From positions 4,246,001 through 4,310,000 of the forward strand of contig NC_012914.1 in NCBI RefSeq assembly GCF_000023585.1: a stretch of DNA of 64,000 nt. The letters run 5' to 3'. Source of the stretch: Paenibacillus sp. JDR-2. GTDB taxonomy: Bacteria; Bacillota; Bacilli; Paenibacillales; Paenibacillaceae. Made by a program: the position numbers and the translations under genes. Below are positions 51,002 to 56,057 of this stretch, piece by piece; within the stretch, counting starts at the first letter, position 1, and every line of letters starts with the position of its first letter. The notes under the pieces are model-generated. The model made no database searches and was not told the DNA's origin. It saw only the letters and a program-made list of their open reading frames with translations.

Positions 51002-51208
51002 ACTGTTTCCCCCGATTTATGCCGTTAATCTATGTATTGACCGTTTAGGTGAGACCCATTCGCGCTTTTTCCTATCATACCATAGGTCATCCTAATTTGT
51101 AGCCTGCGCCATTCCCAGATGGAGGAATGGAAATCTTCTATTCAAATCCGTATACTAGAGAGTAGCTATTATTTTTTTTCTAATCCTAACAGAGGTGAGA
51201 GCAACTCC

Positions 51209-52117
51209 ATGGACGAACTGAAACGAGCTTACGAAACAATGGGTCTTCCTGAAAACGCTTCGAAAGAAGAGGTCGATAAGCGTTACACCACCTTAATGCG
51301 ACAAGCTCGGGCAAGACAAAGAGAGAACCCGGACGGAACCGACCAGGCAGACTTTGAGGAAGTAACGCGCGCTTACCGGTATATCCTCGGCGAAGACAAC
51401 CGGAAAGCCAATGAGGCATTCAACCAGCAGGAATACGGCAAGTACAAAAAAATGGCCGGCTCCGCGGAGAAAGTAGACCATTTCTGGCGCTACTACAAGT
51501 TCCACGTGCTTGGCGGCATCATTGCCATCATTCTTGTTATCGTTGGCATTAACAGCTACCTGGACCACCGGGCTGAGCAGGAGCGTCTCGCCAAGCTTCC
51601 GCCGGTAGACTTGTCCATTATGTTCCTTGGCGAGTATTACATGAGCGACAGCACGGGCAAGCAGACCGAAGAAGCGGATATCGAAGAAGCGCTCATTAAG
51701 CAGTTCCCGGAATTCAAGCGCTTTAAAGTCAATTTCACGTATGTACCGCTGGATGCAAAGGATCAAATGGACATTGCCTCCCAGCAAAAAGCCATGGTCG
51801 TACTCGCGACGGAACGCCCGGACATCTATATTACGGATACGGCTGCGTTTAACTGGGTTGGCCCGCAAGGCGCGTTCATGAATCTGGACTCGCAGACGGA
51901 CATTACCAAGCTGCTTAAGCCGGAGGACAGCTTCAAGCAAAAAACGGAAGAGGATCAGGCCGAGCATACGTACGGCGTAAAAATCTCCGGCAGCCCGATT
52001 ATCGGAAATATTCCGATGCAAGCCAAAGACAATTATATCGCCAGCGTTCGCGAAGGCTCCAAAAACACCGAAAAAGCACTTCAATTCATCGAGAAATTCC
52101 TCGAGACCAAACAATAG
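51209..52117 (+). CDS. Degenerate J-domain membrane protein with exported C-terminal domain
   Basis: The 302-residue protein starts at ATG 51209 (AGGTGAGA upstream). Residues 1-65 resemble a J domain (AYETMGLPENASKEEVDKRY ... DFEEVTRAYRYILG) but the essential HPD tripeptide is absent, so Hsp70 stimulation is not expected. A linker follows, then one TM (about residues 102-120: GGIIAIILVIVGINSY) and an outside domain of ~180 residues whose DIYITDTAAFNWVGPQGAF region looks like a solute-binding-protein fragment. The orientation implies J-like part inside, binding-like part outside. It is a lone plus-strand gene divergent from coaBC and ends in its own terminator. Function unknown. Confidence 0.65.
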   Translation: MDELKRAYETMGLPENASKEEVDKRYTTLMRQARARQRENPDGTDQADFEEVTRAYRYILGEDNRKANEAFNQQEYGKYKKMAGSAEKVDHFWRYYKFHVLGGIIAIILVIVGINSYLDHRAEQERLAKLPPVDLSIMFLGEYYMSDSTGKQTEEADIEEALIKQFPEFKRFKVNFTYVPLDAKDQMDIASQQKAMVVLATERPDIYITDTAAFNWVGPQGAFMNLDSQTDITKLLKPEDSFKQKTEEDQAEHTYGVKISGSPIIGNIPMQAKDNYIASVREGSKNTEKALQFIEKFLETKQ

Positions 52118-52124
52118 GATAAGT

Positions 52125-52161
52125 AAAAGGAGCAAGTTCCCAAGGGGAGCTTGCTCCTTTT
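52125..52161. terminator. Terminator between the J-like and HAD genes
   Basis: AAAAGGAGCAAG (52125-52136) pairs with CTTGCTCCTTTT (52150-52161), ending in T on the plus strand and on the minus strand as well. It serves the convergent genes ending at 52117 and 52160; the HAD stop codon overlaps its edge. Confidence 0.88.
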
Positions 52162-53084: not shown

Positions 53085-53825
53085 TCAACCAATCAGCAAA
53101 GCATAGACTACGCCGGGTCCGTGGACGCCGATCGTCAAATCATTCTCGATATCGGCCGAACGGCTTGGACCGGAAATAAAGTGAATCCCGGCCGGCAGCT
53201 GCTCGCGTCCCGCTTCATCGAAATTTATCAAGATCTCGCCTAGTCGCGTCTTTAAGCGCTCAAGCGGGATCAGAACAAACAATACCGTTGGCAATAGGCT
53301 TACCGAGCGGCCTTTATCCTCCGAGGATAAGACGGTTACGGAGCCGGTATAAGCGGCCGCATAGTCGGCAATTACAATACCGAAGTCCGATTCCGCAGCT
53401 CGCGCTCTCCAGTTCTCCCCTGCCTCGCTGTTCCATACGCGGACTTCCGCTCCCGATGCGGCAAGCGCCTCCTCGAGTCCAAGCTCGCTTAACTCCGGCT
53501 GATTTTGCCGGATGACGTATTTGGCGCTAAGCGCATCCGCTTTTTCCGCGATAAACCGCTTAGCCGCTTCCATGTCGGCAAGCCGCTCCACATGCCCGCC
53601 GGCTGCCTTGAAGTTCGACTCGAACCGGTCCATGCGCTCCTCAAGCGGCCATTCAAAGGCTTGCCAGAAATCCGGGGCGCCACGGAACGGATGCTCCGGC
53701 GCCGAAGTCATCCGGGGATGTCCCAGCTTCTGGGCGATCCCGTTCATGAACGTCTCCTGCTTGCGCTTTGATTCTTCCGCTAACCGCCTCAGCCACTCCT
53801 CATGGGAATCAACCTGCTTAGCCAT
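53085..53825 (-). CDS. lutC: Lactate utilization protein C
   Basis: The 246-residue protein starts at ATG 53825, overlapping the lutB stop; GGGAGG precedes it. It has the LUD domain (FGIVIADYAAAYTGSVTVLSS, LLPTVLFVLIP, IHFISGPSRSADIENDLTIGVHGPG, quoted in parts). With LutA and LutB it forms the membrane-associated lactate oxidase complex that turns L-lactate to pyruvate. Confidence 0.94.
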   Translation of the reverse strand: MAKQVDSHEEWLRRLAEESKRKQETFMNGIAQKLGHPRMTSAPEHPFRGAPDFWQAFEWPLEERMDRFESNFKAAGGHVERLADMEAAKRFIAEKADALSAKYVIRQNQPELSELGLEEALAASGAEVRVWNSEAGENWRARAAESDFGIVIADYAAAYTGSVTVLSSEDKGRSVSLLPTVLFVLIPLERLKTRLGEILINFDEAGREQLPAGIHFISGPSRSADIENDLTIGVHGPGVVYALLIG

Positions 53826-55332
53826 GACCGTTGCCTCCCTCGCTGTCTCTGCCCTGCACAATGGCTTCCATCCGGCTGCGCATGTCGGGAGCAACCTCCT
53901 TCAATCCATGGCGCAGCTCCTGCTCAAGCGTCCCCCATTGTTCGCGGAACGACTTTTTCGGCAGGCTTGGCGTTACCCGGTACGTATTCCAGCCTTTAAG
54001 AGGACCAAGCTTCAGACGGATTCCCCCGTCTCTTACCACAAGCTTTTGTCCCAGCTTGCCTAGCTTCACAAGGCCGGCATAACGCTTCGAGCTGCCCATT
54101 ACGGCAGCAAAGCCTTTCATCCCAATCGACTCTGCCGCATTGCCATGCCCTTGCTCCAGCTTGCGCCGGCGCAAATAAATCAGCATCTCGTGAAGCGGAA
54201 TTTTGACCGGACAGGCCTCGTAGCAGGCGCCGCACAAGCTTGATGCGTTGGCGATATCGTCCCACTCCGCTACATTTTTCTGCAATGCAGGAGTCAGTAC
54301 GGCACCGATAGGACCGCTGTAAGTACCGCCGTATGCGTGTCCGCCGATGTGACGGTACACCGGACAAGCGTTTAGACAAGCGCCGCAGCGGATGCAATTC
54401 AAGAGTTCCTGGAACTCGGGATCGCCCAGCTGCAGGGACCGTCCGTTATCGACGATAATAATATGCATCTCATCCGGTCCGTCCGCGTCAACATCGCGTC
54501 TTGGACCGGTTATGCCGGACATGTAAACCGTCAGCTTCTGCCCTGTCGCCGACCGCGGCAGCAGAGTAGCCATAACCTCCAGATCCGCCCAGGACGGAAT
54601 AATCCGCTCCATCCCCATCAGCGTAATCTGCGTCTTCGGAACGGTTGTAACCATCCGTGCGTTTCCTTCGTTCTCGAAGAGCACCATCGAGCCGGTCTCG
54701 GCAATCGCGAAGTTGCAGCCGGTCATCCCGATATCCGCCTCCAGGAACTTCTCCCGCAGCTTCTTGCGCACAAAGCCCGCAAGAATGGATGTATCGGGAG
54801 CAAGCGTCTCGCCCGCTTCCTGAGACAGAAGATCGGCCACCTGATAACGATTCTTGTGAATAGCCGGGATAATAATATGGGAAGGCGTCTCGCCGGCCAG
54901 CTGGATGATATACTCGCCAAGATCCGTTTCGATGGCTTCAACGCCGATGGACTCAAGCTCATGATTCAAATGCAGCTCTTCCGTAACCATCGATTTCGAC
55001 TTTACAACCGACTTCGCCTGCTTGCGCTGCGCAATCTCAAGAGACAGCTTCACCGCTTCGGCAGACGTCTCGGCAAAATGCACATGCACGCCGTTAGCGC
55101 GCGCCTGATTCGCAAACATATTCAAATAGTAATCCAGATGAGCTATCGTATGAAGCCGGATTTGCCGTCCGCGCTCCCGCCAGTCATCCCAATTGCCATG
55201 CTCGGCGGAAGCCTGCTTTTTGCCGTTCCGAAGACGTTCCGTTGTGAACTTGACCGCTTTGCGCAGGAACTCGTCGTTCAGCGCCAATTCTGCGCGTTCT
55301 TTTACCGTTGATGCCGTACCAGCCGTACTCAT
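53818..55332 (-). CDS. lutB: Lactate utilization iron-sulfur protein B
   Basis: The 504-residue protein has an N-terminal LUD domain (GCNFAIAETGSMVLFENEGN) and two [4Fe-4S] ferredoxin-type motifs (CIRCGACLNACP and CGACYEACP) near residues 315-375. A C-terminal DUF3390-type tail follows (about 400-504). It passes electrons within LutABC. Its ATG overlaps the lutA stop (ATGA). Confidence 0.95.
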   Translation of the reverse strand: MSTAGTASTVKERAELALNDEFLRKAVKFTTERLRNGKKQASAEHGNWDDWRERGRQIRLHTIAHLDYYLNMFANQARANGVHVHFAETSAEAVKLSLEIAQRKQAKSVVKSKSMVTEELHLNHELESIGVEAIETDLGEYIIQLAGETPSHIIIPAIHKNRYQVADLLSQEAGETLAPDTSILAGFVRKKLREKFLEADIGMTGCNFAIAETGSMVLFENEGNARMVTTVPKTQITLMGMERIIPSWADLEVMATLLPRSATGQKLTVYMSGITGPRRDVDADGPDEMHIIIVDNGRSLQLGDPEFQELLNCIRCGACLNACPVYRHIGGHAYGGTYSGPIGAVLTPALQKNVAEWDDIANASSLCGACYEACPVKIPLHEMLIYLRRRKLEQGHGNAAESIGMKGFAAVMGSSKRYAGLVKLGKLGQKLVVRDGGIRLKLGPLKGWNTYRVTPSLPKKSFREQWGTLEQELRHGLKEVAPDMRSRMEAIVQGRDSEGGNGHG

Positions 55333-56057
55333 GCTTGCTTCACCCCTTCATACAAGAGCTCTGCCAAATGCATCACCTTTACCGGCTGATTGCGGTACCG
55401 CAGGTTGCCGGCAATATTCATCAGACAAGCCAGATCAAGCCCAACCAGCACTTCGGCCTCCGTCTCCAGCACATGGTCCACCTTCTCCGTTACCATCGCG
55501 CCGGAAATATCGGCCATCTTTACCGCAAACGTGCCGCCAAAGCCGCAGCAATCCTCCGCGAAAGGAAGCGGAACAAGCTCAAGCCCCTGCACATGGCGCA
55601 TAAGCTCCATCGGTTCTTCCTTAATCCCTAGCAGCCTGCTGCCATGACAGGAAGGATGGTACGTTACTTTGTGCGGGAATACCGCGCCAACGTCTTTTAC
55701 GCCAAGCACTTGAACTAGAAATTGCGTAAATTCATAAGATTTGCGTTGAAGCTTCAATGCCCGCTCATGCATAACCGGATCCGCTTCAAACAGCTTGGGA
55801 TAATGATGAATCATGCCCGTACAGGAGCCGGAGGGCGAAATAACGAAGTCCGAGTCCTCGAATGCATCGAGAATCGTCTTTGCGCTCTCCCGCGCTTCCT
55901 TCCAATAACCGCTGTTGAAGGCGGGTTGGCCGCAGCAGGTTTGTACCGTTGGAAAATGCAGTTGAATTCCGTACTTGGCCAGAAGTCTGACCATTGCCTC
56001 TCCCACTCGGGGATATATCGTGTCGCTAAGACAGGTGATAAATAATGAGACCTTCAC
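55329..56057 (-). CDS. lutA: Lactate utilization protein A (CCG-domain oxidoreductase)
   Basis: The 242-residue protein starts at GTG 56057 with GAGGTGACGAG upstream. It has two cysteine-rich CCG domains, seen as TCCGQPAFNSG (about residue 40) and DCCGFGGTF (about residue 165), typical of the GlpC/LutA type that bind [4Fe-4S]. It belongs to LutABC. It follows the DeoR gene by 28 bp, so regulator and pathway are one transcript. Confidence 0.95.
   Translation of the reverse strand: MKVSLFITCLSDTIYPRVGEAMVRLLAKYGIQLHFPTVQTCCGQPAFNSGYWKEARESAKTILDAFEDSDFVISPSGSCTGMIHHYPKLFEADPVMHERALKLQRKSYEFTQFLVQVLGVKDVGAVFPHKVTYHPSCHGSRLLGIKEEPMELMRHVQGLELVPLPFAEDCCGFGGTFAVKMADISGAMVTEKVDHVLETEAEVLVGLDLACLMNIAGNLRYRNQPVKVMHLAELLYEGVKQA

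Follow-up and report, generated by a model that had tools for sequence, protein, structure and literature searches.

ARC6 is a single-pass membrane protein. ARC6 and cyanobacterial Ftn2 (ZipN) are described in plastid division as joining the inner and the outer machinery, and their plan of an inside part, a membrane passage and an outside part is also that of the protein encoded at 51209-52117 in the window, by which we mean the whole 64,000-nucleotide stretch of the Paenibacillus sp. JDR-2 genome (7.18 Mb) analyzed here. In the available text on ARC6/Ftn2 a J-like domain lies inside and the region across the membrane meets PDV2 (PMC3196505, PMC5471200); the original prediction that no characterised protein has such a plan was thus too strong. 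The likeness is one of plan only: ARC6 is presented, in the portions available, with a conserved stromal region after the J-like domain and with a different outer domain.

Two further systems resemble the cytosolic side of the protein. Tim16/Pam16, placed in the mitochondrial import motor by the accessible parts of two papers (PMC3196505, PMC10423991), is the J-like partner of Tim14. It has a J-like fold without HPD that docks to a J domain, a likeness of fold only, and lacks the outer SBP lobe found here. Proteins of the CJD1/CPP1 type share with the window's protein a membrane-anchored J-like domain without HPD, as far as the available text goes (PMC3196505; PMC10423991), and differ in having three or four TMs; that text mentions no SBP-like outer domain. 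According to the excerpts available, CJD1 bound no Hsp70 in yeast and failed to replace DnaJ, while its J-like domain bound ARC6 in a yeast two-hybrid assay and a double mutant gave no functional link between the two (PMC3196505).

On the outer side, the nearest known proteins are the SBP_bac_1 sugar-binding proteins (PF01547; structures 9xf5 and 4ovj), which share a one-lobe fold with our protein and, in its relatives, also the sequence of that lobe. In contrast to them, our protein has no second lobe, is anchored by a TM that leads to a cytosolic domain, and was seen with no adjoining permease. The open-licence literature searched yielded no description of half-SBP membrane proteins or of this particular protein. 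It seems that the half-SBP family is the new part, HPD-less J-like membrane proteins being already known.

Gene limits and genomic context

The features of the locus are collected in Table 1, and the gene limits originally proposed agree with our reading.

Table 1. Features of the locus encoding the J-like/half-SBP protein (window coordinates).
Feature	Position	Strand	Basis or remark
Sigma-A-like promoter, TGGAAA-17-TATACT	51128..51156	+	consensus scan
Ribosome-binding site, GAGGTGA	51192..51198	+	10 nt before start
Gene, 302 aa	51209..52117	+	ATG 51209, stop 52115-52117
J-like domain, cytosolic (predicted), residues 1-75	51209..51433	+	Pfam, profile, model, dN/dS
HPD-equivalent, R34-A35-R36	51308..51316	+	alignment to DnaJ
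Juxtamembrane helix, residues 76-99 (YGKYK...DHFWRYYKFH)	51434..51505	+	conservation
TM segment, residues 100-117	51506..51559	+	limits by eye; model has one helix, 80-129
Extracytoplasmic domain (predicted) like SBP lobe 1, residues 132-302	51602..52114	+	fold, sequence
Possible terminator hairpin 3' of gene	52142..52159	+	scan

A longer frame starting at ATG 51119 is less likely to be the gene, since it would overlap both the promoter-like site and the ribosome-binding site. Among 81 loci, 59 have GAGGTGA no more than 35 nt from the start, and in 69 the preceding 120 nt contain TATACT. The scans themselves performed near chance, with 3 promoter sites in the region against 1.3 expected and 2 terminators against 1.6. 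Upstream lies a divergent coaBC-like gene (named by eye), and the genes downstream point toward the gene under study; separate transcription appears to us evenly balanced, in a judgement made jointly with the whole adaptor reading discussed below. The nearest named homologue is that of Paenibacillus glycanilyticus (98%).

Neighbours that recur across the 81 loci, named by eye as coaBC-like (11 loci), lut-like (28-34), queC-like (31) and queD-like (16), stand mostly on the opposite strand, while same-strand neighbours include a DegV-like gene in 10 loci and a FabH-like gene in 8, again named by eye. Gene context was considered as a functional clue and rejected, as the recurrent neighbours vary by locus and are mostly on the other strand. 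No ABC permease adjoins the gene in the window, and inspection by eye recognised none in the 30 largest of the neighbour clusters from the 81 loci; an ABC-ATPase-like gene was nearby in 6 of the 81.

Two observations concern the surroundings and the gene copies. In the window, positions 53085-56057 of the minus strand hold three lutABC-like genes (by eye) with an adjacent DeoR-type regulator, and it is this cluster that flanks the gene in the 28-34 loci. In two deposited assemblies (L073 and L092) the gene appears to be frameshifted, with match lengths that are not multiples of three, which may reflect either a sequencing error or a real loss.

The J-like domain

Residues 1-75 had been predicted to form a degenerate J domain without HPD, and Pfam, a family profile and structure models all agree. 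The Pfam DnaJ model matched residues 7-66 with 26.4 bits in hmmscan, 1.4 below the cutoff of 27.8, and with 29.3 bits, above the cutoff, in the genome search; among 32 homologues, 31 had a DnaJ match at E<=0.1. A profile of the family searched against the PDB retrieved J domains, with a best E-value of 5e-7. AlphaFold2 models had a pLDDT of 88 for the whole protein (70 sequences) and of 83 for residues 1-90 alone, and both the J fold and the SBP-like outer lobe were modelled, in line with the structural check proposed for the original prediction. Helices I-III and the conserved hydrophobic positions of the J fold are in place.

Structural comparison of the J segment is consistent with this assignment. 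With Foldseek, 21 of the best 22 matches carried J domain, DnaJ or Hsp40 in their titles, with weak E-values (best 0.04). With VIA-align, Tim16 (2guz_B) was matched at Z 7.2 (rmsd 2.2, 62 residues), on a par with a number of true J domains, among them that of a DnaK complex (5nro_B, Z 7.0), while unrelated helical chains reached about 6, so that, for a small helical domain, a Z of around 7 does not settle the matter. Given the weak Foldseek E-values and the closeness of unrelated chains in Z, it is the sequence evidence that carries the J-domain claim.

The survey of homologues for HPD found none among the J-bearing relatives in any of three overlapping sets (0/32, 0/70 and 0/117). In the models helix II, residues 19-39, extends through the HPD position. 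Among 70 aligned sequences, the position of the histidine is R in 65 and K in 5, that of the proline (residue 35) is S in 42 and A in 18, and that of the aspartate is R in 42. Residues 27-28, which align with the K-R pair of DnaJ helix II, are mostly T/F/E/S/D and T/L/I, respectively, and all 70 sequences have an acidic residue at position 23. K24, the counterpart of DnaJ K23, is kept in 58/70. For DnaJ itself, the available text reports that K23, K26 and the HPD aspartate were placed at the DnaK contact by modelling and co-evolution (PMC5519331); a further source, likewise available in part, describes the DnaJ-Hsp70 interface as differing between partner pairs (PMC7289447). Judged from the alignment, the J-like domain is without the residues that Hsp70 needs. 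Some Hsp70 contact is nevertheless conceivable, since the J features besides HPD are largely intact and K24 corresponds to a co-evolving DnaJ contact.

This domain is nonetheless under purifying selection. From seven close homologues (21 pairs), dN/dS was 0.064 for the J segment, 0.000 for residues 76-99, 0.044 for the TM, 0.018 for the linker and 0.053 for the outer domain. A decaying J domain was considered and rejected on the value of 0.064. Elsewhere in the same genome (G000:C1:6936698-6936829, L002), a large protein with TPR-like repeats, recognised by eye, starts with another degenerate J domain, in which YPPE stands in place of the expected YHPD.

Juxtamembrane helix and topology

Residues 76-99 are the most conserved segment of the protein, with a mean conservation of 0.80 compared to 0.54-0.65 elsewhere, and show no nonsynonymous change across the 21 pairs. 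A YYK-x-H motif ahead of the TM is also common to relatives without a J domain (L135-L138, L143), and TM forms of this kind read IWDYYKxH, as opposed to FWRYYKFH in our protein. The flank N-terminal to the TM is more positive than the C-terminal flank in 70/70, in agreement with the predicted single TM and cytosolic J-like part. A topology with the J-like domain inside, one TM and the SBP-like domain outside (N-in, C-out) is thus supported by sequence and model. An outside position of the outer domain is indicated by this charge pattern and, independently, by relatives that carry the same domain behind a lipobox.

The outer domain

The outer domain, 171 residues long, had been described as SBP-like, and this part of the prediction holds, with SBP matches at Z of about 11 over some 130 residues; what is present corresponds to one lobe and not to the two-lobed fold. 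Residues 131-302 matched the SBP 9xf5 at Z 11.6 (rmsd 3.0, 130 residues), and SBP matches at Z of at least 10.6 ran throughout the best 50 listed. The best Foldseek match was 4ovj at 1.1e-3, none reaching E 0.001, including those of the whole model. The matched ranges of the SBP chains mostly span 250-330 residues, of which only about 120-140 are aligned and a large middle part is skipped.

At the sequence level, SBP_bac_1 was detected weakly in 8 of the 32 homologues (best E 0.007), whereas relatives without the J domain exceed its cutoff. In one of these, L135, the SBP_bac_1 match falls into two stretches and is best at profile positions 277-301. A profile of the domain (A5) also reaches SBP-length frames of 444-645 aa, with E-values of up to 3.7e-7. 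The skipped middle, the split match of L135 and what is known of maltose-binding protein lead us to infer that the outer domain would be lobe 1 only of an MBP-type SBP, with lobe 2 gone. The domain has the lobe-1 fold and sequence of SBP_bac_1 and lacks a two-lobed ligand cleft; it is too short to include a second lobe and would not be expected to close around a ligand in the manner of SBPs.

Distribution and architectures of the family

The protein is not a chance find, since whole-protein matches were obtained in 33 of 40 related genomes, its own included, and in 24/24 others of the genus; in one of the 33 (G025) the outer half only was matched. Searches with the outer domain gave matches in 243/245 genomes of the window's family, in 33/37 genomes in the class of G483, and in 40/398 genomes across the phylum, some of these to full SBPs. 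By sequence, the half-SBP is the common core of a protein family. The homologue sets share members between analyses; set A2 comprised 69 of 80 loci, leaving out near-copies (L037, L041, L042, L052, L054, L055, L057, L065 and L104) and the frameshifted L073 and L092.

The 182 distinct frames were sorted into 117 with J domain and TM, 43 with a lipobox and 22 termed TM. Inspected by eye, the last group contains 17 frames with IWDYYK, another TM form (L263), the frameshifted J gene of L073, and three lipoproteins missed by the lipobox pattern (L213, L237 and L239). Judged by frame length, 57 of the 58 genomes compared have a single half-SBP, either in a J-length frame or in a lipoprotein-length one and never in both. 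In one set, all 28 genomes have one half-SBP, of J length in 5 and shorter in 23. A second set, of 30 genomes that carry J-length frames and were selected because they have at least two matches, has one such frame in 29 cases and four in G619, their other matches being SBP-length frames save for one weak match in a 156-aa frame. As regards the exception, the three of its four J-length frames that were fetched (G619:C1, L278-L280) match the J profile, two of them without the YYK motif.

A tree built from 140 domains has all of its 84 J rows (the 117 thinned by shared 4-mers) on one side of a branch with 100/99 support. Repeated anchor swapping within the family was considered and rejected, as the tree places the J rows on a single branch and the lipoproteins in a group apart; this agrees better with two old forms, one or the other of which was lost. 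The J-like domain was apparently gained once, at a later stage, and is now maintained by selection.

A second inner module is found in other classes of the phylum. In L272, L273 and L277 an N-terminal Prok-RING_1 domain (PF14446) occupies the position of the J domain and is followed by a TM and the same half-SBP; it scores above the cutoff, with E-values of 2.8e-11 to 7.4e-14. SBP_bac_1 reaches 8.8e-12 in L272 and 1.3e-12 in L277, and 26.0 bits, exactly the cutoff, in L273. The RING-type frames are L272, L273, L276, L277, L282-L293, L295 and L296, and the zinc-ligand pattern occurs in 15 distinct ones; L294, labelled LIPO in the tree by pattern, may also be a RING form. In the class of G423, 56/60 genomes match one RING-type protein, many through full SBPs only, and in 44/60 the match covers both parts, starting within the RING domain (residue <=19) and reaching the lobe (residue >=190). 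These proteins have the plan of the window's protein with a RING-like zinc domain replacing the J-like one, belong to another class of the phylum and occupy a part of the tree separate from the J rows. The plan of a small N-terminal domain, a TM and a half-SBP therefore exists with two inner domains. For Bacillus, the available text describes a separate Prok-RING_1 protein, of 61 aa, with a role in promoting plant growth (PMC4029887); this is not direct evidence on the half-SBP family.

Possible roles

The original prediction was that the protein may connect a signal from outside with a chaperone-like contact in the cytosol. This idea is not supported, given the loss of HPD and of the helix-II basic pair, the lack of room for a second lobe, and the existence of relatives without a J domain (a lipoprotein form and a TM-only form). 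Our preferred reading, to which we give about an even chance, is that of a single-pass membrane adaptor, in which the half-SBP docks a protein partner outside and the J-like domain, with no involvement of DnaK, docks one in the cytosol. On the outer face, the lobe would have lost solute trapping and would dock a protein partner instead; half of the cleft is missing, which makes it unlikely that a solute is still trapped, and binding to another protein is the simpler explanation. On the inner face, the J-like domain may dock a cytosolic protein independently of DnaK, comparable to those of Tim16, CJD1 and ARC6, and docking of another protein is probably its likeliest use given the loss of the Hsp70 residues and, by analogy, the results for CJD1. 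The juxtamembrane helix may couple or position the inner and outer parts, and the core function shared by the family would be carried by the outer lobe. With less support, the likeliest outer partners might be components of SBP-dependent sugar ABC importers.

A more specific role, possible if unlikely, is that of a general controller of sugar ABC importers, in which the half-SBP would mimic SBP lobe 1 and dock CUT1-type permeases, the inner domain would touch a shared ATPase or regulator, and one copy would serve many importers. The retained part does match MBP-type SBPs across one lobe, and genomes carrying it are rich in SBPs. Using first-look SBP_bac_1 candidates as a proxy for SBP number, in a comparison confounded by phylogeny that covered 390 genomes of a 396-genome table, the median was 29 in 30 carriers vs 5 in 360 others, and at least 15 candidates were found in 27/30 vs 41/360; with the window's family excluded, 23 carriers remained and the median was still 28. 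The carriers, defined as the 30 of the 40 phylum-wide matching genomes with the match in a frame of <=343 aa (nine genomes with full-SBP-length frames, among them the RING-type G797, and G856, which is absent from the table, were not counted), hold 10-150 such candidates, beside the one half-SBP that is typical of the family. However, large SBP repertoires may merely explain the origin of the domain, and 41 SBP-rich genomes among the 360 have no half-SBP match, although five of them (G299, G337, G399, G494 and G517) match the RING-type query over RING and lobe. The carrier clades are also few, and the neighbour clusters showed no permease. SBP richness suits an importer-related role and also a simple origin from abundant SBPs.

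A broader and rather unlikely proposal is that bacteria have a class of transmembrane adaptors, so far undescribed, with the half-SBP as the outer part and with swappable inner modules or a lipid anchor, acting as a single-copy hub that would control or assemble the numerous SBP-dependent sugar importers of these Bacillota. The inner modules of such a class would be J-like in Paenibacillaceae and relatives and Prok-RING in another class.

We regard as improbable that the protein is a Tim16-like Hsp70 regulator, whose J-like domain would pair with the J domain of DnaJ or with DnaK and hold it at the membrane unstimulated. The membrane-anchored J fold without HPD, the place of Tim16 among the tied best VIA-align matches and the retention of K24 would agree with it. 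On the other hand, the basic pair of helix II is gone and position 23 is acidic throughout, the analogue CJD1, in the text available, neither bound Hsp70 in yeast nor replaced DnaJ (PMC3196505), and relatives do without the J domain. At least as improbable is that the J-like domain binds no partner itself and only assists folding, insertion or turnover as an N-terminal plug; TM forms without it do exist and share the juxtamembrane motif, but the constraint on the J segment is near that on the outer domain. Least probable is a transmembrane sensor, in which binding of a small ligand by the outer lobe would be signalled via the TM to the J-like domain, since, despite its SBP ancestry and the selection acting on the inside, TM and outside parts alike, half of the SBP cleft is absent and the lipoprotein form has no cytosolic part to receive a signal.

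Implications

The adaptor reading brings together a bacterial J-like domain that is under strong selection despite the loss of the residues Hsp70 needs and half an SBP that appears to have been reused repeatedly as a fixed outer domain with exchangeable inner parts. Since nearly all genomes compared have one copy of the half-SBP and almost every genome of the window's family has a match to it, much could be learned directly from a knockout. If the partners are sugar importers, the family would bear on how uptake is coordinated in bacteria with very many SBPs.
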